Shown: one piece after another, positions 14,559-33,577 of the stretch | Position numbering within the stretch: position 1 is the first letter of the stretch | Layout: every line of letters starts with the position of its first letter | Assembly (NCBI RefSeq): GCF_009377235.1 | Contig: NZ_VMNX01000009.1 | Coordinates: 1-64,000 of the forward strand | Length of the DNA stretch: 64,000 bases | Source of the DNA: Streptomyces acidicola | Lineage (GTDB): Bacteria; Actinomycetota; Actinomycetes; Streptomycetales; Streptomycetaceae | Direction: 5' to 3' | Translations under genes and position numbers: made by a program | The notes under the pieces: model-generated | Seen by the model: only the letters and a program-made list of their open reading frames with translations | Told to the model about the DNA's origin: nothing | Database searches by the model: none

Positions 14559-15746
14559 TCAGTCGCTTGAGCCGCTGCGGTCCGTGAAGGCGCCGTGGGT
14601 GTCGAAGGCCAGCTTGGCGAAGCGTTCGCCGATGCGGCGGTGGGTGGCGGCGTCCGGGTGGAGCTCGTCGGGCAGCGGCAGCTCGGCGAAGTCGGCCTCG
14701 CCGTAGAGGTCGCGGCCGTCGAGGTGGTGGAGGTTCGGGTCCTCGGCCGCCCGCTGCTCCACGATGCGGGCCAGCTCGTCCCGTATGACGCCGAGGGTCA
14801 GCTTCCCGAGGGCGCGTTCCGCCGGATCGCCCATGGCGACGAACCGCAGTCGGCCGGTGCTGAGGTTGCTGAAGTCCGGGGCGCTGGGCCCCGGCGTGTC
14901 CTCGTGGATGGGGCACAGGATGGGCGAGACGACCAGCAGCGGTGTCGTGGGGTGGCCTTCGCGGATGGTGTCGAGGAAGCCGTGGACGGCGGGAGTGAAG
15001 GCGCGCAGACGCATGAGGTCGGCGTTGACCAGGTTGATACCGATCTTGACGCTGATCAGGTCGGCGGGAGTGTCACGGATGGTACGGGCCGTGAACGGAT
15101 CGAGCAGGGCGCTGCCGCCCAGGCCCAGGTTGATCAGTTCCACACCGCCGAGGGAGGCGGCGAGTGCGGGCCAGGTGGTGGTGGGGCCGGCGGCGTCGGA
15201 GCCGTGACTGATCGAGCTGCCGTGGTGCAGCCACACCCTGCGGCCCGAATCCACGGCAGGCTCGATGGGGGCGTCCGTGCGCAGGGCGGCGAGTTCGGTG
15301 GTCTCGTTGTGCGGCAGCCAGATCTCGACGTCCTTGACGGTGCCGGGAAGTCCGGTGAAGCGGAGGGTGCCGGGAGGGCCGGAGTACTGCTCGGCCGTTC
15401 CGGTGGACATGTCGATGGTCAGGGTGTTGCCGCCCGTCACGCTGCCCTGGCCGGCCAGGCGGCCGTCGACGATCAGGTCGTACACGCCGTCCGGGCGGGG
15501 AGGAGCGCCCACGTAGACACGTTTGGTGGGCAGCGTGTCCAGCTCGACCGCGGTGGCCCGGGTGCGGAAGACCAGGCGTACGCCCGACGGCTGGGCCTCG
15601 GCCATGGCCAGTTGCGGGTCGGCGCACTGGGCGCGGGCCCGGGCCGGCAGCCGGTGCGGCAGGACGCCGTACTCGGTGCGCTCCACGTCCAGGGCGCCGC
15701 GCAGGAGCTCCGCGGTGACGGGCGTGGTGATCCAGTGGTTGTCCAT
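14559..15746 (-). CDS. SGNH/GDSL-family esterase with N-terminal beta domain
   Basis: A 395-aa hydrolase. Residues 1-165 form a beta-rich jelly-roll-like region (VELDTLPTKRVYVG, TLTIDMSTGTAEQY). The SGNH blocks follow: HHGSSISHG (nucleophile Ser about 177), INLGLGGSAL (Gly), SVKIGIN (Asn about 238) and LPLPDELHPD (Asp 360, His 363). It likely removes acyl or acetyl groups from a carbohydrate or lipid. No signal peptide is seen. ATG 15746 lies 25 nt downstream of the TetR stop, so the two are co-transcribed from the promoter at 16389-16418. Upstream in-frame codons overlap tetR and are less likely. Confidence 0.85.
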   Translation of the reverse strand: MDNHWITTPVTAELLRGALDVERTEYGVLPHRLPARARAQCADPQLAMAEAQPSGVRLVFRTRATAVELDTLPTKRVYVGAPPRPDGVYDLIVDGRLAGQGSVTGGNTLTIDMSTGTAEQYSGPPGTLRFTGLPGTVKDVEIWLPHNETTELAALRTDAPIEPAVDSGRRVWLHHGSSISHGSDAAGPTTTWPALAASLGGVELINLGLGGSALLDPFTARTIRDTPADLISVKIGINLVNADLMRLRAFTPAVHGFLDTIREGHPTTPLLVVSPILCPIHEDTPGPSAPDFSNLSTGRLRFVAMGDPAERALGKLTLGVIRDELARIVEQRAAEDPNLHHLDGRDLYGEADFAELPLPDELHPDAATHRRIGERFAKLAFDTHGAFTDRSGSSD

Positions 15747-15771
15747 GGTGTGTGCTGCCTCAACTTGTTGA

Positions 15772-16362
15772 TCAGTGTGCGGGACCCTGGGCGGTCGGTG
15801 CCGGCCAGTTCCGGAGCAGGGCATCGAGGGCGTCGACGATGCGTGTCCAGGTGGTCTGCGTGTCGGGGGCGCTGTGACTGAACCCTCCCCCCAGTTCCAG
15901 GCTGACGTAGCCGTGGAAGACGCTGCCCAGGAGCCGGACGGCGTGCGTCTGGTCCGGCTCCGTCAGGTCGTAGCCGCGCAGGATCGCCCGCGTCATCTGG
16001 GCGTGTCTGACACCCGCGCTGGCGGCCGCCGCCTCCGGGTCGAGCCTCAACTGGGCTGCGGCATAGCGGCCGGGGTGCTCCCGGGCGTAGTCACGGTAGA
16101 CGTTCGCCAAGGCGGCCAGGGCGTCCTTGCCGGCCCGCCCGGCAAGCGCGGCGGCACCCCGGTCGGCGAGCTCTTCCAGGGCGAGCAGACAGATCAGGGT
16201 CTTGAGGTCGTGGGAGTTCCTCACGTGTGAGTACAGGCTCGCGACCTTGACGTCGAACCGCCTGGCGAGCGCCGAGACCGTCACCTCGTCGAAGCCGACC
16301 TCGTCGGCCAGTTCCGCACCCGCCCGGGCCAGGCGTTCCCGGGTCAGCCCTGCGCGCGCCAT
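15772..16362 (-). CDS. TetR-family regulator (WHG-type C-terminus)
   Basis: A 196-aa repressor. The N-terminal HTH reads LTRERLARAGAELADEVGFD, EVTVSALARRFDVKVASLYS and HVRNSHDL. The C-terminal ligand domain has YREYAREHPGRYAA-like helices (here VYRDYAREHPGRYAAAQLRL) and LLGSVFHGYVSLELGGGF, typical of the TetR WHG-domain group. ATG 16362 is preferred because GAGGGG lies about 6 nt upstream; an ATG at 16368 abuts that sequence. It probably represses itself and the esterase through the palindrome in their promoter. Confidence 0.9.
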   Translation of the reverse strand: MARAGLTRERLARAGAELADEVGFDEVTVSALARRFDVKVASLYSHVRNSHDLKTLICLLALEELADRGAAALAGRAGKDALAALANVYRDYAREHPGRYAAAQLRLDPEAAAASAGVRHAQMTRAILRGYDLTEPDQTHAVRLLGSVFHGYVSLELGGGFSHSAPDTQTTWTRIVDALDALLRNWPAPTAQGPAH

Positions 16363-16388
16363 AACCATCCCCTCGTTGAACTACATCG

Positions 16389-25238: not shown

Positions 25239-26582
25239 CTACTTCTCGACGGTGAAGCCCTGCTCGTTGCCGTACTTGACCGAGGCGTCCTGCCAGGCCT
25301 TCAGGCCGTCGGCCAGCTTGGTGCCGGACACGTAGGCCTTGCCGACGGTGTCGTTGAAGATCGAGTTGGCGTACTGCTGGAAGGGCAGGTACGACCAGTC
25401 GTCAGCGACGTTCGCGGCCGACTCGGCGAAGATCTCGTTGGCCTTCTGCCCGCCGAAGTACTCGAACTCCTTGTTCTTGAACTCCGTGGACTGAACGTCC
25501 GCGGTGGTCGCCGGGAAGGCGCCCTCCTTGATGCGGCTCTGCACACCGTCACCGGAGTTGGCGTACTCGACGAAGGCGTAGGCGAGTTCCTTGTTCTTGC
25601 CCAGCGTGGGCACGGTCAGGGAGCTGCCGCCGTTCTCGGCGCTCGCCTTGTCGCCCTTGGTCCAGGCGGGCAGCGGGGCCGCTCGCCAGTCGCCGGAGGC
25701 GTTCGGCACACCGGTGACGAAGTTGGCGGGCATCCAGGCGCCGCTGGGCAGCGTGGCGATGGTGCCGTCGCCCAGACCCTTGTACCAGTCGTCGGTCCAG
25801 CCGGTGATGGGCGCGACGAGCTTCTCGTCGATGAGCTTCTGCCGGTTGTCGGTGAACTTCTTGGCAGCCGCGTCGGAGAAGTCGATCTTCACCGTGGTGC
25901 CGTCGACCTGGTAGGGACGCGAACCGGCCTGCCAGAGCAGGCTGGTGGTGAGGCCCGCGTCGCCGGCGTCGGCGGCGATGAAGACCTTGGGGTCCGCCGT
26001 GTGCAGCTTGCGGGCCGCGTCGACGTACTCGTCCCAGGTGGTCGGGACCGCGACCTTGTACTTGTCGAAGATCTTCTTGTTGTAGAACATCGCCATCGGG
26101 CCGGAGTCCATCGGCAGGCCGTAGACGGCGTCACTTCCCTGGGTCACCGCGTTCCACGGACCCGCGGTGTACTTGTCCTTCAGCTTGTCCGCGCCGAAGG
26201 GGGCCAGGTCGGTGAGGCCCTTGGTCAGGGCGTACTGGCCCAGCGCGAAGTACTCGACCTGCGCGACGTCGGGCACGCCCTTCTCGGCTTCGATGGCGTT
26301 CGACAGGGCGGTGTAGTGCTTGTCGCCGGACCGCTCGCCGACGAGGTCGATCTTGACCTTGGGGTACTTCTTCTGGAAGTCGGCGGCGACCGTCTTGAGG
26401 GTGGGCTCCCAGGCCCAGACCGTGACGGTGCCGCCCTTGTCCAGGGCTGCCTTGAGGTCCGCGGCGGAGACCGGCTTCTGGTCGGAACCCTCGTCGTCGG
26501 AGCCGCCGCAGGCGGTCGCGCCCAGGGCGAGGGCGGAGAACAGGGCTATGCCGCGCAGCAGGCGGCCGGTGGTTCTGCGCAT
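25239..26582 (-). CDS. Carbohydrate ABC transporter substrate-binding lipoprotein (family 1)
   Basis: A 447-aa lipoprotein. The signal peptide ends in the lipobox LGATACGGS (Cys about 25), followed by an acidic linker. The mature protein is a cluster B sugar-binding fold: GGTVTVWAWEPTLKTVAADF, DVAQVEYFALGQYAL, GLPMDSGPMAMFYNKKIFDK and WMPANFVTG. It should bind galacto-oligosaccharides outside the membrane and feed the MalF/MalG-type permeases encoded upstream. The start is ATG 26582. No ATPase gene is present; Streptomyces often use one shared ATPase (MsiK) for such importers. Confidence 0.92.
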   Translation of the reverse strand: MRRTTGRLLRGIALFSALALGATACGGSDDEGSDQKPVSAADLKAALDKGGTVTVWAWEPTLKTVAADFQKKYPKVKIDLVGERSGDKHYTALSNAIEAEKGVPDVAQVEYFALGQYALTKGLTDLAPFGADKLKDKYTAGPWNAVTQGSDAVYGLPMDSGPMAMFYNKKIFDKYKVAVPTTWDEYVDAARKLHTADPKVFIAADAGDAGLTTSLLWQAGSRPYQVDGTTVKIDFSDAAAKKFTDNRQKLIDEKLVAPITGWTDDWYKGLGDGTIATLPSGAWMPANFVTGVPNASGDWRAAPLPAWTKGDKASAENGGSSLTVPTLGKNKELAYAFVEYANSGDGVQSRIKEGAFPATTADVQSTEFKNKEFEYFGGQKANEIFAESAANVADDWSYLPFQQYANSIFNDTVGKAYVSGTKLADGLKAWQDASVKYGNEQGFTVEK

Positions 26583-26661
26583 GGAGGTGCTTCCACTTCT
26601 TTGTGGGTGGGACAGATGAGAGTGGGACGAGGTGCGACTGAGGGGGTGGTGCGCAGGAGGG

Positions 26662-27609
26662 CTACTCCTTGACGCTTCCCGCGGCGAGCCCGGACTGCCA
26701 GTACTTCTGCAGCAGCAGGAACGCGGCGATCAGCGGCACGATGGTGAGCAGTGATCCGGTGATCACCAGGTTGAAGATCACGTCCCCGCCGATCGTCTCG
26801 GCCTGGGAGTTCCAGACACTCAGGCCCAGGGTCAGGGGGTACCAGTCCGAGTCCTTGAGCATGATCAACGGCAGGAAGTAGTTGTTCCAGGTCGCGACTG
26901 TCGTGAACAGCAGCACCGTCACGATGCCGGGGGCGAGCAGCGGCAGGGCGACCTGGAAGAAGGTGCGCGCCTCGTTCGCTCCGTCCATCCGGGCGGCTTC
27001 CAGCAGTTCGGTGGGGATGGCCTCGGTGGCGAAGACCCACATCAGGTACAGGCCGAAGGGCGAGACGAGCGAGGGGATGATCACCGCCCACGGGGTGTCG
27101 GTCAGCCCCATCTTGCTGAACATCAGGAACGTCGGCACCGCGAGGGCGGTCCCCGGGACGGCGACCGCGCCGATGACCACGGCGAACACGGCACGTTTCC
27201 CGGGGAAGTCGAACTTCGCCAGCGCGTAACCGCCCAGGATCGCCAGGAAGGTGGCCCCACCGGCACCGACCACGACGTACAGCAGGGTGTTCAGCAGCCA
27301 GCGCGTGAAGACGCCGTCGTTGTACGTGAACGTGTCCCTGATGTTGTCCCAGAGGGCGAAGTCGTCGGCGAACCACAGCCCGCCCGAATCGGCCAGCCCC
27401 TCCTGGGTCTTGGTGGCGCTGATGACGAGCCAGATCAGCGGCACCACGGTGTAGAGCAGCATCAGACCGGTGAGCACGGTCAGCAGAACGCTGCGCTTGG
27501 GGCGCCCGGCAGTGTGCCGACGGGGCGTACGCAGACGGGACGCGCCCTTGCCCGCGCCGGCGGCCCGGGCGGGTATGGACTCGGAAGCGGTGGTGACGGG
27601 GCTGCTCAT
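26662..27609 (-). CDS. Carbohydrate ABC transporter permease (MalG type)
   Basis: A 315-aa inner-membrane protein with six membrane segments after a basic N-terminal tail. The EAA loop that contacts the ATPase reads LLEAARMDGANEARTFFQVA LPLLAPG in two parts (about residues 213-239). The C-terminus ends LLQKYWQSGLAAGSVKE, the common MalG-type tail. It starts 4 nt after the MalF-type stop, so the permeases are coupled. Partner of the binding protein at 25239. Confidence 0.94.
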   Translation of the reverse strand: MSSPVTTASESIPARAAGAGKGASRLRTPRRHTAGRPKRSVLLTVLTGLMLLYTVVPLIWLVISATKTQEGLADSGGLWFADDFALWDNIRDTFTYNDGVFTRWLLNTLLYVVVGAGGATFLAILGGYALAKFDFPGKRAVFAVVIGAVAVPGTALAVPTFLMFSKMGLTDTPWAVIIPSLVSPFGLYLMWVFATEAIPTELLEAARMDGANEARTFFQVALPLLAPGIVTVLLFTTVATWNNYFLPLIMLKDSDWYPLTLGLSVWNSQAETIGGDVIFNLVITGSLLTIVPLIAAFLLLQKYWQSGLAAGSVKE

Positions 27610-27613
27610 CGGG

Positions 27614-28540
27614 TCACGCTCCCTTGCTCATGCCGCGCAGCTGCACGATGTAGGCGATCACCATGGTGATCAGTCCCATGATGATCGCGACCGTCGCGGA
27701 GTAGTTCTGCTGCTGGCCGTTGAAGGACAGCGAGTACGTGTAGAAGTTCGGGGTGAAGTCGGTGGTGATGGCGTTGCGTGCGAGCTGCCGGAGGATGTTC
27801 GGCTCGTTGAACAGCTGGAAGCTGCCGATGATCGAGAAGATCGTCGCGATGACGAGGGCTCCGCGGATGGCGGGGAGCTTGATGGCGGTGATGACGCGGA
27901 TCTGTCCGGCGCCGTCGATCTCCGCGGCCTCGTAGAGGGAGTGCGGGATGACACGGAGCGCGGAGTAGAAGATCAGCATGTTGTAGCCGACGAACTCCCA
28001 GGTGACGATGTTGCCGATCGACGCCAGCACCAGGTCGGGCGAGAGCGGGTCGGGCAGGGTCACACCGAAGGCCTCGTTGATGTCCCCGACGAGACCGTAG
28101 CGGGTGCCGTACATGAAGCCCCACATCAAGGTGGCGACCACGGCCGGTACCGCGTACGGCAGGAAGATCGCGATGCGGAAGAAGTCCCTGCCGTAGAGGC
28201 GGCCGCTGTCCAGGGCGAGAGCGATCAGCAGGGCGATGCCCAGCATGATCGGTACCTGGACGACGAGAAACAGCGAGACCCGTCCGAGGGAGGCCCAGAA
28301 CCGGTCGTCCTCCAGGGCCTGCGTGTAGTTGTCCAGGCCGACGAAGGTGGTGCCGCCGATCAGCTGGTCACGGAAGAGGCTGAGATAGATCGAGTACGCG
28401 ATCGGCGCCAGGAAGACGAGGGCGAACACGGCCACGAAGGGGCCGAGGAAACCCCACCCGGTCCAGGAGCGGCGGTCTCGTCTCGCCGGGGGCGGCGCCG
28501 GTCGCGGTTCCACGGCCGCCGGAGGTTGTTGCGTCGTCAT
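27614..28540 (-). CDS. Carbohydrate ABC transporter permease (MalF type)
   Basis: A 308-aa permease, first gene of the galactan operon. A Pro-rich N-terminal tail precedes six membrane segments. Typical MalF-like phrases are FLAPIAYSIYLSLFRDQLIG, FVGLDNYTQAL and RIAIFLPYAVPAVVATLMWG, and the EAA loop is YEAAEIDGAGQIRVITAIKL. ATG 28540 follows GAGGAA. Transcription is presumably driven from the intergenic region with two LacI-type palindromes shared with the divergent regulator gene. Confidence 0.94.
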   Translation of the reverse strand: MTTQQPPAAVEPRPAPPPARRDRRSWTGWGFLGPFVAVFALVFLAPIAYSIYLSLFRDQLIGGTTFVGLDNYTQALEDDRFWASLGRVSLFLVVQVPIMLGIALLIALALDSGRLYGRDFFRIAIFLPYAVPAVVATLMWGFMYGTRYGLVGDINEAFGVTLPDPLSPDLVLASIGNIVTWEFVGYNMLIFYSALRVIPHSLYEAAEIDGAGQIRVITAIKLPAIRGALVIATIFSIIGSFQLFNEPNILRQLARNAITTDFTPNFYTYSLSFNGQQQNYSATVAIIMGLITMVIAYIVQLRGMSKGA

Positions 28541-28607
28541 GTCGTTCCTCGCTCGTCACATCCCGGAACCGGCGGTGCCGCCCGATGTCGAGGAGGCCGC
28601 ACCGCGC

Positions 28608-28625
28608 GATGTTTACGTAAACATC
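28608..28625. promoter_or_regulatory. LacI-family operator 1 of the galactan cluster
   Basis: GATGTTTACGTAAACATC is a perfect 18-bp palindrome with central CG, 68 nt upstream of the MalF-type start. An identical 16-bp core recurs at 28653-28668, centres 44 bp apart. Both lie between the divergent transporter operon and its LacI gene. Confidence 0.85.
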
Positions 28626-28652
28626 TCCTCGGAAAGGAGGCCGTGCGCTGTT

Positions 28653-28668
28653 ATGTTTACGTAAACAT
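28653..28668. promoter_or_regulatory. LacI-family operator 2 of the galactan cluster
   Basis: ATGTTTACGTAAACAT is a perfect 16-bp palindrome identical to the core of operator 1. It is 98 nt from the lacI start codon and likely controls lacI autoregulation or cooperates with operator 1 by looping across about four helical turns. Confidence 0.85.
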
Positions 28669-28765
28669 CTAATGGCGGAATGTCTACACCGCCCCGATCA
28701 CGGCGGTCAAGGGATCCTTGGCGAATCCGTGACGCAAGCTGCGCAGGAGAGGAGGCGGCCGAGGG

Positions 28766-29863
28766 ATGGACACGGCTGACAGAACGCCGACGGGCGTCCC
28801 CGGTAGTGGTCGAAGACGATCCCGGGCCGGGATCAGGTCCCAGACCGCTTCCATGGCCGACGTCGCCCGGCTGGCGGGGGTCTCCTCGCAGACCGTGTCA
28901 CGCGTCTCCAACGGCTACGCCGGGGTGACCGAGGAGACCCGGCAGCAGGTGCTGGCGGCCATGAAGGAGTTGGGCTACCGGCCCAACAGCGCCGCCCGGG
29001 CCCTCAAGCGGGGCGAGTTCCGCACGATCGGCGTCATCACCTTCTCGCTCTCCACCACGGGCAACGTCCGCACCCTGGAGGCGATCGCCAACTCGGCGGC
29101 CCACGAGGGGTACGCGGTGACGCTGCTGCCGGTCGCCGTACCCACCCAGGACGAGGTCCGGGGCGCGTTCTCCCGCCTTGAGGAGCTCGCGGTCGACGCG
29201 GTGATCGTCATCATGGAGGTCCATCTGCTCGACGCGGCGACCATCGCGCTGCCGCCGCACGTCCAGGTCGTGGTCGTCGACTCCGACGCCGGCGACCGCT
29301 ACACCGTCGTCGACACCGACCAGGCCGGCGGCAGCCACGCCGCCGTACGGCACCTGCTCGACCTGGGCCACGCCACGGTGTGGCACCTGGGCGGCCCGGA
29401 CGGATCCTTCGCCGCCCAGCGCCGAGCGGACGCCTGGCACGCGGCCCTCATCGAGGCGGACCGCACGCCGCCGCCGCTGGTCCGGGGCGACTGGTCGGCG
29501 GAGTCCGGCTACCGCGCCGGGCTCGTCCTCGCCGACCACGAGGACTGCACCGCCGTCTTCGCGGCCAACGACCAGATGGCGCTGGGGCTGCTGCGGGCCC
29601 TCCACGAACGCGGCCGGCGCGTCCCCGAGGACGTCAGCGTCATCGGCTTCGACGACATCCCCGAGGCGGGCTCCTTCCTGCCCCCGCTCACCACCCTCCA
29701 CCAGGACTTCGCCGAGGTGGGGCGGCTCTGCGTCGAGAACGTCCTGCGCAAGATGCGCCACGAGGGCGCGGAGCGCGGCACGACCCTGGTGCCGACCCGG
29801 CTGGTGGTACGGGAGAGCACGGCTCCGCCGCCTTCGCTCGCCCAGGGCCTGTGTCGGAAGTGA
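28766..29863 (+). CDS. LacI-family repressor of the galactan cluster
   Basis: A 365-aa regulator. After a basic, disordered N-terminus of about 28 residues the HTH reads MADVARLAGVSSQTVSRVSN with hinge helix NSAARALKRGEF. The effector domain begins TIGVITFSLSTTGNVRTLEA and contains VFAANDQMALGLLRALHERG and VSVIGFDDIPEAGSFLPPLT, typical of GalR/LacI sugar sensors. It is divergent from the transporter-hydrolase operon and the two palindromes between them are its probable operators. The inducer is presumably a galacto-oligosaccharide or galactose. ATG 28766 follows GAGGG; an internal Met at residue 30 is a possible alternative start. Confidence 0.93.
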   Translation: MDTADRTPTGVPGSGRRRSRAGIRSQTASMADVARLAGVSSQTVSRVSNGYAGVTEETRQQVLAAMKELGYRPNSAARALKRGEFRTIGVITFSLSTTGNVRTLEAIANSAAHEGYAVTLLPVAVPTQDEVRGAFSRLEELAVDAVIVIMEVHLLDAATIALPPHVQVVVVDSDAGDRYTVVDTDQAGGSHAAVRHLLDLGHATVWHLGGPDGSFAAQRRADAWHAALIEADRTPPPLVRGDWSAESGYRAGLVLADHEDCTAVFAANDQMALGLLRALHERGRRVPEDVSVIGFDDIPEAGSFLPPLTTLHQDFAEVGRLCVENVLRKMRHEGAERGTTLVPTRLVVRESTAPPPSLAQGLCRK

Positions 29864-29895: not shown

Positions 29896-30005
29896 TCCTG
29901 GCCGCCTTCGCGAATTCCGGGTTCCCCGGGCGACGCGGGACGGGAATCCTGTCGTCCGTGCGGCCTCTCCCCCACAATGGTTCGGATCCCGCGGAGGGGA
30001 GCCGT

Positions 30006-31217
30006 ATGAACGCCGAGCCCGAGCAGCGGACTTCCGCTCCTCGTCGTCGTGAACTGGACGTCCTCCGGACGCTCGTGGTGCTCGGTCTGGTCTTCTTCCA
30101 TGCCGCCCTGGTGTTCGACCCCAGGGACGACTTCTACGTCAAGAACGCGGACACGACCGAAGCCGTCACCGTCCTGGCGGGTCTGGCCGTGGTGTGGGCG
30201 ATGCCCATGTTGTTCCTCGTCGCGGGTCTCGGTGCCCGGCACTCCGTCCGCCGCCGTGGTGCGGGGCGCTTCGCCCGTGAACGCCTGTTGCGCCTGGGCG
30301 TTCCGCTGGTGTTCGTCACGGTCGTCCTCAATCCCCTCCCCCAGTGGCTGCGGGCGCGGGCAGCCGATCCCGGCCACCACGAGTCGTACTGGAGCTTCTG
30401 GCCCCGCTTCCTCACCGTCCACCTGGACCTCGGTGACTTCCCGTTCCTCCTCGACGGGGACCACTTCGACACGGGACACCTGTGGTTCGTCGTTCTCCTG
30501 CTCACCTTCTGTCTGCTCCTCGCCCCCCTCGCCGCCCTCCTCCCGGCCGGCACCGACGGTGCGGGGAGGGCGGTGGCGCGCCGCCCGTGGCTGCTCCTGC
30601 TGCCCGCGCTGCCGCTCGCCGCGGTCAACTCCCTGCTCGGCATGGAGGAGGGGTACGCCGGCTGGAACCGCTGGGCGTATCTGATCTTCTTCCTCTGCGG
30701 CTACACCCTCGCCGACGACGACCAGGTCCGCGCCGTCCTGCGCCGCCTCGCGCTGCCGGTGGGCGTGCTCGGGCTCGTCCTGTTCGCCGCCACCGCGCCC
30801 GGCTTCCTCTCCGGCGACGACCCGTTCACCGCTCGGACCTGGACCGCGATGGCCACGCGGGCCCTCTTCGGTGCGGCCGGGTGGTGCTGGGTGACCGCCG
30901 TCCTCGGGTTCCTCGACCGGCCACGCGAACCGGGCACGTCCGCCCTCGACCGGCCCGGGCGCGGACGGGACCTGCTCGCGTACTTCGCGGTCGCCGCGCT
31001 GCCGCTGTACGTGCTGCACCAGCCCCTGGTGGTCGCCTTCGCCTACGGAGTGGTGGGGTGGTCCGCACCGATCGTGGTCAAGTACGTGGTCATCGTGACC
31101 GGTTCCCTGGCCGTGCTCCTCCTTGTCTACGAATTCGGGGTGCGCAGAACCCGTGTGACGCGCTTTCTGTTCGGCATGCGTCCCGAGCCCAGCTCCGTGC
31201 GGCCCCGAACCACCTGA
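30006..31217 (+). CDS. Membrane acyltransferase (acyltransferase-3/OpgC-like)
   Basis: A 403-aa integral membrane protein with about ten membrane segments. It starts RRRELDVLRTLVVLGLVFFH, which matches the acyltransferase-3 motif (R-lD-lr...v...H) that carries the catalytic His. It continues with RHSVRRRGAGRFARERLLRL, FDTGHLWFVVLLL and LLAYFAVAALPLYVLHQPLV near the end. Members O-acylate sugars, peptidoglycan or secondary metabolites in the membrane; the substrate here is unknown. ATG 30006 follows GGAGGGGA. It converges on the graspetide ligase with a 15-bp gap; no functional link is evident. Confidence 0.85.
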   Translation: MNAEPEQRTSAPRRRELDVLRTLVVLGLVFFHAALVFDPRDDFYVKNADTTEAVTVLAGLAVVWAMPMLFLVAGLGARHSVRRRGAGRFARERLLRLGVPLVFVTVVLNPLPQWLRARAADPGHHESYWSFWPRFLTVHLDLGDFPFLLDGDHFDTGHLWFVVLLLTFCLLLAPLAALLPAGTDGAGRAVARRPWLLLLPALPLAAVNSLLGMEEGYAGWNRWAYLIFFLCGYTLADDDQVRAVLRRLALPVGVLGLVLFAATAPGFLSGDDPFTARTWTAMATRALFGAAGWCWVTAVLGFLDRPREPGTSALDRPGRGRDLLAYFAVAALPLYVLHQPLVVAFAYGVVGWSAPIVVKYVVIVTGSLAVLLLVYEFGVRRTRVTRFLFGMRPEPSSVRPRTT

Positions 31218-31232
31218 CCCACCGCTGCCCCG

Positions 31233-32189
31233 TCACCAACGAGGCTTGGGCGCCCGCGATTCCGGCCGGCGCCATGACAGCCACAGGGCGACCGCTTCCG
31301 CGATGGGCTGCTCCGTCTCCAGTTCGACGAAGCCGAACTGCCCGCCCTGATTGCATTCCAGAAACCACCACACCCCCTCATCGTCCTCGGCGAAGTCGAA
31401 TGCTGCGTACGCGAGACCGGCGAGGGACAGGTACTCCAACGCCGACGTGGTGATGCGGTCGGGCACCGGGACGGCTTCCCAGACGTACTCGGTGTCGCCG
31501 TAGCGGCCGTCGATCTGACCGGGGGCGGCCCGCTTGCGGGCGGCGAACAGACGGTCGCCGACGCAGGTCAGACGAATGTCGGCCCTCTTGGGTACGTACC
31601 GCTGCAGCAGCGCGGGGCCGGCGGCCACCGCGCCGAAGTCGATGCCGGGCCCGATCAGCGTCGTCGGCAGGGCGACGGCGGGGTCGTCGGGCGGTGGGCC
31701 CGAGGCCGACTTCACGACCACGTCCCGGTGCAGCTCGGCGAACTGCTCGGCCACCCTCGGTGCCGTGGTGAAGACGGTCGGCGGTACGGCGAAGCCGCTG
31801 AAGTGGGCGACCCTCAACTGCCATGGTTTGTGCCGCGCCTGGTCGGCGTTGCCCGGGTGGTTCATCCACGCGGGCGAGGCCGAGTAGAGCATGCCGTAGA
31901 GCGCCTGCCGCGTCTCGGCGGTCAGCCATGCGGACGGCTGGGCCGCGTGGGCGGCGGGGTCGCCCGGCCTGCGCACCCACACGGAGCGCAGGCCGCCCAT
32001 GCTCAGCACATGCCCGTTGACCGACAGATGGCCGTCGAAGTCGCCGTGTGCGTAGTCCGCCGACAGCACGGCCTTACCCGGGATGTCGGCCGGATCCAGG
32101 CGCATCACCGGCGCGCCCAGCCTGTTGAGCTCCGCCACCACCATATCGGCGGTGACGTCCTGCTCCGACGTGAGGATCAGTACGGTCAC
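31233..32189 (-). CDS. Graspetide (RiPP) ATP-grasp ligase
   Basis: A 318-aa ATP-grasp enzyme of the omega-ester/amide peptide (graspetide) maturase type. The N-terminal domain TVLILTSEQDVTADMVVAEL NRLG and SVWVRRPGDP match these maturases (shown in parts). The ATP-grasp core has DVVVKSASG (about 158), ALLQRYVPKRADIRLTCVGD, AFDFAEDDEGVWWFLECNQG and QFGFVELETEQPIAEAVA; the Mg ligands are the Glu and Asn of ECN. It should link Thr/Ser hydroxyls of the precursor to Asp/Glu side chains. GTG 32189 lies 12 nt after the precursor stop, so they form an operon. No methyltransferase, protease or exporter is adjacent. Confidence 0.85.
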   Translation of the reverse strand: MTVLILTSEQDVTADMVVAELNRLGAPVMRLDPADIPGKAVLSADYAHGDFDGHLSVNGHVLSMGGLRSVWVRRPGDPAAHAAQPSAWLTAETRQALYGMLYSASPAWMNHPGNADQARHKPWQLRVAHFSGFAVPPTVFTTAPRVAEQFAELHRDVVVKSASGPPPDDPAVALPTTLIGPGIDFGAVAAGPALLQRYVPKRADIRLTCVGDRLFAARKRAAPGQIDGRYGDTEYVWEAVPVPDRITTSALEYLSLAGLAYAAFDFAEDDEGVWWFLECNQGGQFGFVELETEQPIAEAVALWLSWRRPESRAPKPRW

Positions 32190-32201
32190 GGGCGGCGGCT
32201 G

Positions 32202-32393
32202 TCAGTCGTCGAAGTGTGTCTGGGAGCCCGCCGTGGACGTCGTGGTGCCGACCGCGAGCAGGAGGTCCCGGTCGGCGACGGCGGGACGGCCGTCGCCGAG
32301 CACGTTCAGCTGCAACGAAGCGTCGAAGCTGTAGGGCTCCACCACGATCGGCAGGGCTCTGGGCCGGACGTAGTTCAAGGTGAACGGTCGCAA
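32202..32393 (-). CDS. Graspetide precursor peptide
   Basis: A 63-aa peptide matching the ATP-grasp-modified RiPP precursor pattern. The leader has RPFTLNYVRPRALP and the recognition-like YSFDASLQLNVLGDGRP. The C-terminal core GTTTSTAGSQTHFDD supplies Thr/Ser donors and a terminal Asp pair. I choose TTG 32393 because GGGAGG (32405-32400) lies exactly 6 nt upstream. An ATG at 32429 would add 12 residues, but its AAGGA abuts the codon. It is the first gene of the two-gene operon, read directly into the ligase. If matured, product chemistry would be one or more side-chain ester rings near the C-terminus. Confidence 0.82.
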   Translation of the reverse strand: MRPFTLNYVRPRALPIVVEPYSFDASLQLNVLGDGRPAVADRDLLLAVGTTTSTAGSQTHFDD

Positions 32394-32427
32394 GGCGAAC
32401 CTCCCAGGTCGAACGATGTCTGTACGC

Positions 32428-32457
32428 ATTCCTTAACGTCCGTATGTCGTAAGGAAT
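32428..32457. promoter_or_regulatory. Inverted repeat upstream of the graspetide operon
   Basis: ATTCCTTA (32428-32435) and TAAGGAAT (32450-32457) are perfect 8-bp arms separated by 14 bp. The repeat lies 35-64 nt upstream of the TTG start in a locally AT-rich stretch. It could be an operator or a leader hairpin; it also covers the alternative ATG. Confidence 0.5.
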
Positions 32458-32689
32458 TCATCACTTTCCGCCACATCAGGGTGAAGGTCATCACATCAAC
32501 CTCGGGGCTCGTTTTTGCGTCCGCCCCCTGTGTGCACGGGTCCTGAGGAGCCGTCAGAGACGCGGGTTGCATCCCGTTCACGATCCCGGCGCATGGTGGT
32601 GAAGGTCAGGCCCCGCGTGAAAGGCTCGCCCCGCACGGTCTCCGTCAGGGGTCGGTGACGTACGGGATCGGCACAGGAGAGGCGGCGGC

Positions 32690-33577
32690 ATGCGCATCGG
32701 ACTGCTCGGTACAGGACCGTGGGCCGACATGGCCCATGCCCCGGCGTTGAGCGGGCATCCCGGACTGGACTTCGTGGGGGTGTGGGGCCGGCGCGCGGAG
32801 GCGGCCGAGGAACTGGCCGGCCGGCACGGCACACGGGCGTACGAGGACGTCGACGCGCTGCTCGCCGAGGTGGACGCGGTCGCTGTCGCGCTGCCTCCAT
32901 CCGTACAGGCCCCGCTCGCCGTGCGTGCCGCGCGGGCGCGGTGCCATCTGCTGCTGGACAAGCCCGTCGCGACCAGCGTCGAGGAGGGGCGGGCCGTCGT
33001 CGAGGCGGCCCGCGAGACCGGGGTTTCCTCGGTCGTGTTCTTCACCTCGCGTTTCCAGACGGCGACACAGGCCTGGATCACCGAACAGGCGGCCCTGGAC
33101 GGCTGGTTCACGGCGCGGGCGGAGTGGCTCGGCTCGGTGTTCACCAGCGACAGTCCGTTCGGGGCGTCACCGTGGCGCCGGGAGAAGGGGGGCCTGTGGG
33201 ACGTCGGTCCGCACGCCCTGTCGCTGCTGCTGCCGGTGCTCGGCGACGTCGCGCGGGTGGCTGCCGCCGCACGCGGCCCGGAGGACACCGTCCATCTGGT
33301 CCTCGAACACGCGGGCGGGGCGTCGAGCACTCTGACCCTCGGCCTCACGGCTCCGCCGGCGGCCGCCGGGGCCACGGTGGAGCTGCGCGGCAAGGCCGGA
33401 GTCACGGTTCTGCCCTCGTCCTCCGAGGGACCGGTGGAGGCTCTCCAGCGGGCCGCCGACGCCCTCCTCTCCGCCGTCGAGACCGGCCGCCCGCACGACT
33501 GCGACGCCGCCTTCGGCCTGCGGGTGACGGAGATACTCGCCGAGGCCGAGGGACAGTTGGGCGGTGCGGACGAGTAG
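32690..33577 (+). CDS. Gfo/Idh/MocA-type oxidoreductase
   Basis: A 295-aa protein, shorter than most family members. The Rossmann motif is MRIGLLGTGPWADMAHAPAL, followed by GVWGRRAEAAEELAGRHGT, VAVALPPSVQAPLAV and the family signature LLLDKPVATSVEEGRAV with Lys of DKP. The C-terminal domain has GGLWDVGPHALSLLLPVLGD, which carries the catalytic Asp/His pair. It likely oxidises a sugar or related alcohol with NAD(P). ATG 32690 follows GGAGAGG. It stands alone and is distinct from the enzyme at 3489. Confidence 0.87.
   Translation: MRIGLLGTGPWADMAHAPALSGHPGLDFVGVWGRRAEAAEELAGRHGTRAYEDVDALLAEVDAVAVALPPSVQAPLAVRAARARCHLLLDKPVATSVEEGRAVVEAARETGVSSVVFFTSRFQTATQAWITEQAALDGWFTARAEWLGSVFTSDSPFGASPWRREKGGLWDVGPHALSLLLPVLGDVARVAAAARGPEDTVHLVLEHAGGASSTLTLGLTAPPAAAGATVELRGKAGVTVLPSSSEGPVEALQRAADALLSAVETGRPHDCDAAFGLRVTEILAEAEGQLGGADE

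Follow-up and report, generated by a model that had tools for sequence, protein, structure and literature searches.

Introduction

A short peptide gene directly upstream of an ATP-grasp ligase gene in Streptomyces acidicola raises the question of whether the pair makes a graspetide and, if so, which rings the ligase would install. The pair lies in the window, i.e. the first 64,000 nucleotides of contig NZ_VMNX01000009.1. A sequence-only reading had taken it for a macrocyclic graspetide locus lacking the methyltransferase that many related loci carry. The closest known system is prunipeptin (PruA/PruB; MIBiG BGC0002725), named for Streptomyces prunicolor; PruB is the prunipeptin ligase. Unno and Kodani are said to have obtained prunipeptin in 2021 from a two-gene cluster, and the peptide reportedly contains one ester and one isopeptide. 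We consider it highly probable that the window locus is a two-gene cassette of the prunipeptin type, in which a PruB-like ligase is predicted to join Asp62 and Asp63 of the precursor to hydroxyl groups of the core.

A PruA-like precursor gene precedes a PruB-like ligase gene

The features of the locus are collected in Table 1. Their coordinates bear out the sequence-only reading on the 63-residue peptide, the gene order, the TTG start, the GGGAGG element and the tail GTTTSTAGSQTHFDD, as well as on the 12 nt between precursor and ligase (positions 32190-32201) and on the core having just two acidic residues.

Table 1. Features of the precursor-ligase locus, in window coordinates
Feature	Position	Strand	Remarks
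ATP-grasp ligase gene, PruB-like, 318 aa	31233..32189	-	GTG start; stop included (31236-32189 without stop)
Precursor peptide gene, PruA-like, 63 aa	32205..32393	-	TTG start 32393-32391; stop codon 32202-32204
Core region GTTTSTAGSQTHFDD, residues 49-63	32205..32249	-	Candidate acceptors Asp62 and Asp63
Leader motif RPFTLNY, residues 2-8	32370..32390	-	Likely ligase-recognition site, by inference
Ribosome-binding site GGGAGG	32400..32405	-	6 nt before TTG; read from the sequence
8-bp inverted repeat ATTCCTTA...TAAGGAAT	32457-32450 and 32435-32428	-	Overlaps the conserved upstream element
Conserved upstream element GTGATGAATTCCTTAC-N10-CGTT	32435..32464	-	Probable promoter or operator for the two genes
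Dyad TGTGA-N6-TCAC	32481..32495	-	Possible regulator site; conserved in aligned upstream regions

In profile searches the precursor matches PF14404 ('Ribosomally synthesized peptide in Streptomyces species') at 115 bits and TIGR04186 ('putative ATP-grasp-modified RiPP') at 47.9 bits, both against a cut-off of 25, and 93 database proteins are its relatives. A search of 79 relatives that permitted any Met, Val or Leu codon at the position of the window TTG found a start there in every case (GTG 42, ATG 34 and TTG 3), and the PF14404 alignment begins at residue 1, i.e. the TTG residue; together these make the TTG start credible. An ATG further upstream in the window would give an alternative 75-residue reading, and this ATG is absent from the relative L001. 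The leader motif is similar to Phhx(1,2)h, a motif described for leaders in PMC8939145. Its residues P3 and F4 are the same in all 71 of the 63-residue precursors; the script that located the starts required PF, and another scan, free of that requirement, likewise finds PF at these 79 loci.

The best-matching family of the ligase is TIGR04187, at 344.7 bits and thus about 5 bits under the cut-off of 350. It exceeds the cut-off of PF21068 (37 bits against 27), falls below those of MvdC (105.6 bits against 425) and MvdD (92 bits against 475), and matches the RimK family weakly, at 28.5 bits. The ligase thus groups with the graspetide synthetases, as the sequence-only reading had it, and its nearest solved relative is PruB: PDB entry 9bou, entitled 'Crystal structure of ATP-grasp ligase PruB from Streptomyces coelicolor A3(2)', matches at 378 bits, with 180 of the 305 aligned residues identical (59%). 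The window genome is the sole one of 26 precursor-bearing genomes that has no TIGR04187 match above the cut-off; of the 14 control genomes, 7 show weak matches below it. An AlphaFold model of the ligase, which served only to name solved relatives, was poor (mean pLDDT 58.2), probably due to a shallow alignment, and the active site was therefore judged from alignments. K121, K160, R206, E278 and N280 are among the residues invariant across 20 aligned ligases. A literature search for PruA/PruB with ATP-grasp or graspetide gave no paper on the PruB enzyme among the matches listed.

Microviridins, whose precursor MdnA is served by MdnB and MdnC, share the ATP-grasp ligase superfamily with the window locus, and the window ligase scores 89 bits to MdnB and 74 bits to the MdnC chain. 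They differ in that the window locus has one ligase, which lies far under the TIGR04184 and TIGR04185 cut-offs. Microviridins have a characteristic core motif, and it is absent from the window core.

Precursor and ligase occur together as a two-gene unit

A ligase scan confirmed 438 relatives, the best 80 of which were kept for locus comparison; the nearest ligases all come from Streptomyces. At 79 of these 80 loci an intact precursor lies 11-38 nt upstream of the ligase; at the 80th (L070) the precursor frame is broken between leader and core, by a real break or a sequencing error. Of 61 genomes of the genus, 26 have a PF14404 match, counting that of the window, whereas none of the 14 control genomes has one. 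All 31 full-length PF14404 matches, again including that of the window, are followed on the same strand by a TIGR04187 match 12-44 nt downstream, measured as the distance between match ends, while two partial PF14404 matches (33 matches in all), at E 1.8e-4 and 5.5e-4, lack an adjoining ligase match. The peptide is thus conserved with the ligase in related genomes; the sequence-only reading had named this, like the grouping of the ligase, as a test of its interpretation, and both come out in its favour. The converse linkage fails: 57 ligase matches exceed 340 bits in the 26 genomes, and while 31 adjoin a PF14404 precursor, 26 do not. Five genomes (G001, G007, G022, G026 and G049) carry two full-length PF14404 precursors each, and G007 has eight TIGR04187 matches, partly incomplete; the window precursor is the only PF14404 precursor of its genome.

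No gene family outside the cassette occurs at more than 18 of the 80 loci (best 80 of 438). The gene calls first used for shared families were rough, with some clusters apparently in the wrong frame, and the question was rerun with six-frame queries of at least 100 residues from 14 of the 80 loci; at this query length, shorter shared genes could be missed. We rejected the neighbouring genes of the window as cassette partners on their occurrence at the 80 loci (E 1e-20): the acyltransferase gene (29958-31217) is found at none, the oxidoreductase gene (32690-33577) at two, the LacI-like gene at three (plus four more at 31-33% identity), and the genes resembling a P450, a helicase and a glycosyltransferase at one. 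Read by eye, positions 25239-29863, beside the cassette, appear to encode an ABC transporter for carbohydrates together with a regulator of the LacI type; the LacI-like gene is common to L001-L003 only, at 93-97%.

The claim that the window locus stands apart from its relatives in lacking a methyltransferase did not survive for this subfamily. Searching with tblastn and the enzyme of contig C53 of the same genome, in flanks of up to 6 kb on each side, we found no PIMT-like methyltransferase gene in the window or at any of the 80 loci (best 80 of 438). With neither a methyltransferase nor another common gene at these loci, the two-gene form is the norm of the subfamily.

The methyltransferase also bears on a reading of the locus as a group 13 graspimiditide, with the enzyme acting in trans from another contig. 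The four graspimiditides that PMC13001092 gives from actinomycetes (fuscimiditide, amycolimiditide, albusimiditide and SsfA) resemble the predicted window peptide in being actinomycete graspetides, with Thr-Asp ester stems, but they differ in their PIMT-like methyltransferase and aspartimide; according to PMC13097080 and PMC13001092, group 13 almost always carries this enzyme. Contig C53 of the window genome does match TIGR04188, at 470 bits. However, this methyltransferase adjoins its own truncated ligase, no such gene was found in the flanks of the 80 relatives of the window locus (best 80 of 438), and the only Asp residues of the window core are the two C-terminal candidate acceptors, which leaves no loop Asp to convert. 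We regard the trans-acting arrangement as very unlikely. The C53 locus itself (approximately 14762-16382; L082 and L083) appears to be a decayed second graspetide locus, in which a ligase piece covering TIGR04187 positions 146-311 only lies next to the full-length TIGR04188 methyltransferase gene.

The core is almost frozen, with swaps at positions 54 and 58

The core has the Thr and Ser candidate donors and terminal Asp-Asp candidate acceptors expected of the prunipeptin type. T51, S53, A55, G56, S57, T59, H60, F61, D62 and D63 are unvarying in 71 precursors (70 relatives and the window, all of 63 residues). The script behind this count demanded a THFDD ending, and a scan without that demand shows THFDD in all 79 intact loci; among the 93 database proteins, 92 end in THFDD and one in THSDD. 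Pairwise pN/pS is 0.105 in the core against 0.50 in the leader, which indicates that selection acts on the peptide.

This difference also speaks to the possibility that the ligase modifies another substrate, as a RimK-like or glutathione-synthase-like amide ligase, and that the peptide is an unrelated small protein. The ligase does share the ATP-grasp fold with RimK (28.5 bits; fold matches), yet its scores to the graspetide families lie far over the RimK score, precursor and ligase are linked in 31 of 31 cases, and selection at the protein level is much stronger on the core than on the leader. Such a role is, in our judgement, extremely improbable, and we retain the prunipeptin-type cassette.

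Positions 54 and 58 of the core do vary. In the 79 loci, position 58 is Q in 44, A in 21 and K in 14, and in the 93 database proteins, a set that overlaps the loci and like them was collected by likeness to window genes, it is Q in 76, A in 8, K in 8 and R in one. Position 54 is T in 75 of the 79 loci and K in four, so that Thr54 is replaced by Lys alone. Lys54 and Lys58 never occur together (0 of 79 loci), and 72 of the 93 database proteins have no Lys at all, as is the case for the window precursor. On the ligase tree the Thr54/Lys swap requires three changes. Well-supported branches force each of the three, and three gains are the simplest explanation; Lys58 requires six changes, three of them forced. 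The swap from Thr54 to Lys keeps a nucleophile in place, and these substitutions in near relatives make Thr54 a likely ring donor. Ligase residue 178 (Leu to Arg) was considered as a tracker of Lys58 and rejected, as it follows the clade instead of the Lys: Arg occurs with Gln58 in L052 and L055, and Leu with Lys58 in L040, L045, L046, L049 and L054.

The near-constancy of the core does not extend beyond this subfamily, since plasmid-borne sisters change Phe61 and add a third Asp. Three such loci on Streptomyces circular plasmids (L109, L111 and L112) share with the window the order of precursor then ligase, and their cores end in TTSTAGSATHNDDD; they differ in having three C-terminal Asp residues (THNDDD ending), an extra small gene directly after the ligase, and ligases 45-49% identical. 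The L112 cassette sits among integrase genes. In the precursor search the cassette is present on three plasmid records, and comparison of the ligase with phage gave just two distant matches, at 26-30% identity.

The Lys-less precursor would allow ester rings only

In a further plasmid locus, L110, the ligase shares 82% of its residues with 9bou, the gene order is that of the window locus, and the core, GTTTSTAGSKTHFDD, is one residue off: Lys58 stands where the window core has Gln58. Counted from the ATG at MQPF, Lys58 is the sole Lys of the mature-frame L110 precursor. The isopeptide of prunipeptin, if present there, would thus presumably be formed through Lys58, which is impossible in the window type. 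Since Lys58 is missing from 65 of 79 relatives it does not define the sequence family, yet its absence bars transfer of the prunipeptin ring pattern to the window peptide. Without Lys every ring of the window peptide would have to be an ester, and with only two side-chain carboxylates there could be at most two rings, the C-terminus aside.

We propose that the PruB-like ligase would bind the leader through its PF motif and phosphorylate Asp62 and Asp63 by the ATP-dependent acyl-phosphate chemistry that is known for graspetide synthetases (PMC13097080). The activated aspartates would then be joined as esters to hydroxyl side chains of the core, with Thr54 as one putative donor and a nearby hydroxyl, best Ser57 or Thr59, as the candidate for the second. 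The outcome may be as many as two rings, with 36 Da lost. To remove the leader and export the product, proteins encoded elsewhere would be needed. From the reasoning on ring donors and the nested Thr-Asp esters of fuscimiditide (PMC12291112), we predict one or two esters in the window peptide, with Thr54 as one donor.

The number of rings invites an alternative, in which a prunipeptin-type cassette would form a single ester ring in the Lys-less branch and leave the second aspartate free. Lys58, found at just 14 of the 79 loci and in 8 of the 93 database proteins, is a residue of the PruB clade that is evidently dispensable: position 58 is Q, A or K, so that the second ring may be absent in the window type, and the isopeptide reported for prunipeptin cannot form on a Lys-free precursor. 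However, all 79 intact relatives keep both aspartates, whether they have Lys58 or not, an argument for the use of both, and Ser57 and Thr59 are likewise unvarying. We therefore consider a single ring unlikely, if a serious contender, and continue to favour joining of both Asp62 and Asp63.

A conserved element lies upstream of part of the family

The upstream DNA was analysed in an alignment of 80 regions (79 relatives and the window), with 50 single-base shuffles as control. The strict pattern GTRRTGARNNCCNTAC-N10-CGTA is present in 38 of 80 regions (shuffled mean 0) and TGTGA-N6-TCAC in 43 of 80 (shuffled mean 0.02); the window copy of the former has one mismatch (CGTT). Shared descent contributes to this conservation, though flanking genes differ between loci. 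In the 61 genomes a looser pattern gave 22 matches, of which 6 are exact and 16 carry a single mismatch; its reversed control gave 7. All six exact matches stand upstream of a PF14404 precursor, as do two of those with one mismatch (the window's and that of G001:C294); the other 14 lie elsewhere. With 8 of 31 precursors in the 61 genomes having the element within one mismatch, it marks part of the family. The off-precursor matches include one site in G039, G042 and G054 and another, nearly identical between G005 and G056, and these recurrent sites are possibly inside conserved genes. No other copy of the 22-mer was found within 3 mismatches in the window's genome.

The conserved element is probably a promoter or operator. 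Its spacing would fit a non-sigma-70 promoter. A scan of positions 31100-32800 for sigma-70 promoters and terminators found nothing; positions 30600-33400 gave no Rfam match. The inverted repeat pointed out earlier is indeed present, but of the 80 regions just those of the window and L002 share it, and we reject it as a regulatory hairpin on this occurrence (2 of 80) and on its folding no better than shuffles (z +0.80).

Discussion

The earlier observation is real, and the locus belongs to an already named, automatically annotated and partly characterised family, the prunipeptin type, for which the preprint PMC11888242 gives 3,589 cluster members, 99.53% of them in Streptomyces. The macrocyclic graspetide reading is supported, but the layout once seen as an exception is the rule of the family. 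New here are the near-invariant core, the choice of Q, A or K at position 58, the swaps of Thr54 to Lys, the Lys-less window type and the conserved upstream element.

Taken further, these features would suggest a scenario that we put forward tentatively, at somewhat less than an even chance. The nearly frozen scaffold GTTTS[T/K]AGS[Q/A/K]THFDD would have switched repeatedly between all-ester and ester-plus-amide forms through one Lys, at position 54 or 58; the Lys-less window type, the commonest, would be an undescribed two-lactone peptide; and a dedicated promoter element would travel with both genes.

The natural Thr/Lys and Gln/Ala/Lys swaps provide a substrate set for probing the choice between hydroxyl and amine donors, for which a solved PruB structure exists, and the upstream element offers a handle on the timing of peptide production. 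This self-contained peptide-stapling cassette, its core almost unchanged, is present in 26 of the 61 genomes sampled from the genus, or roughly two fifths with that of the window counted. A near-constant core across genomes is the pattern of a conserved function and not of a diversifying antibiotic, and the conservation of the peptide points to a single target or signal that Streptomyces strains have in common.
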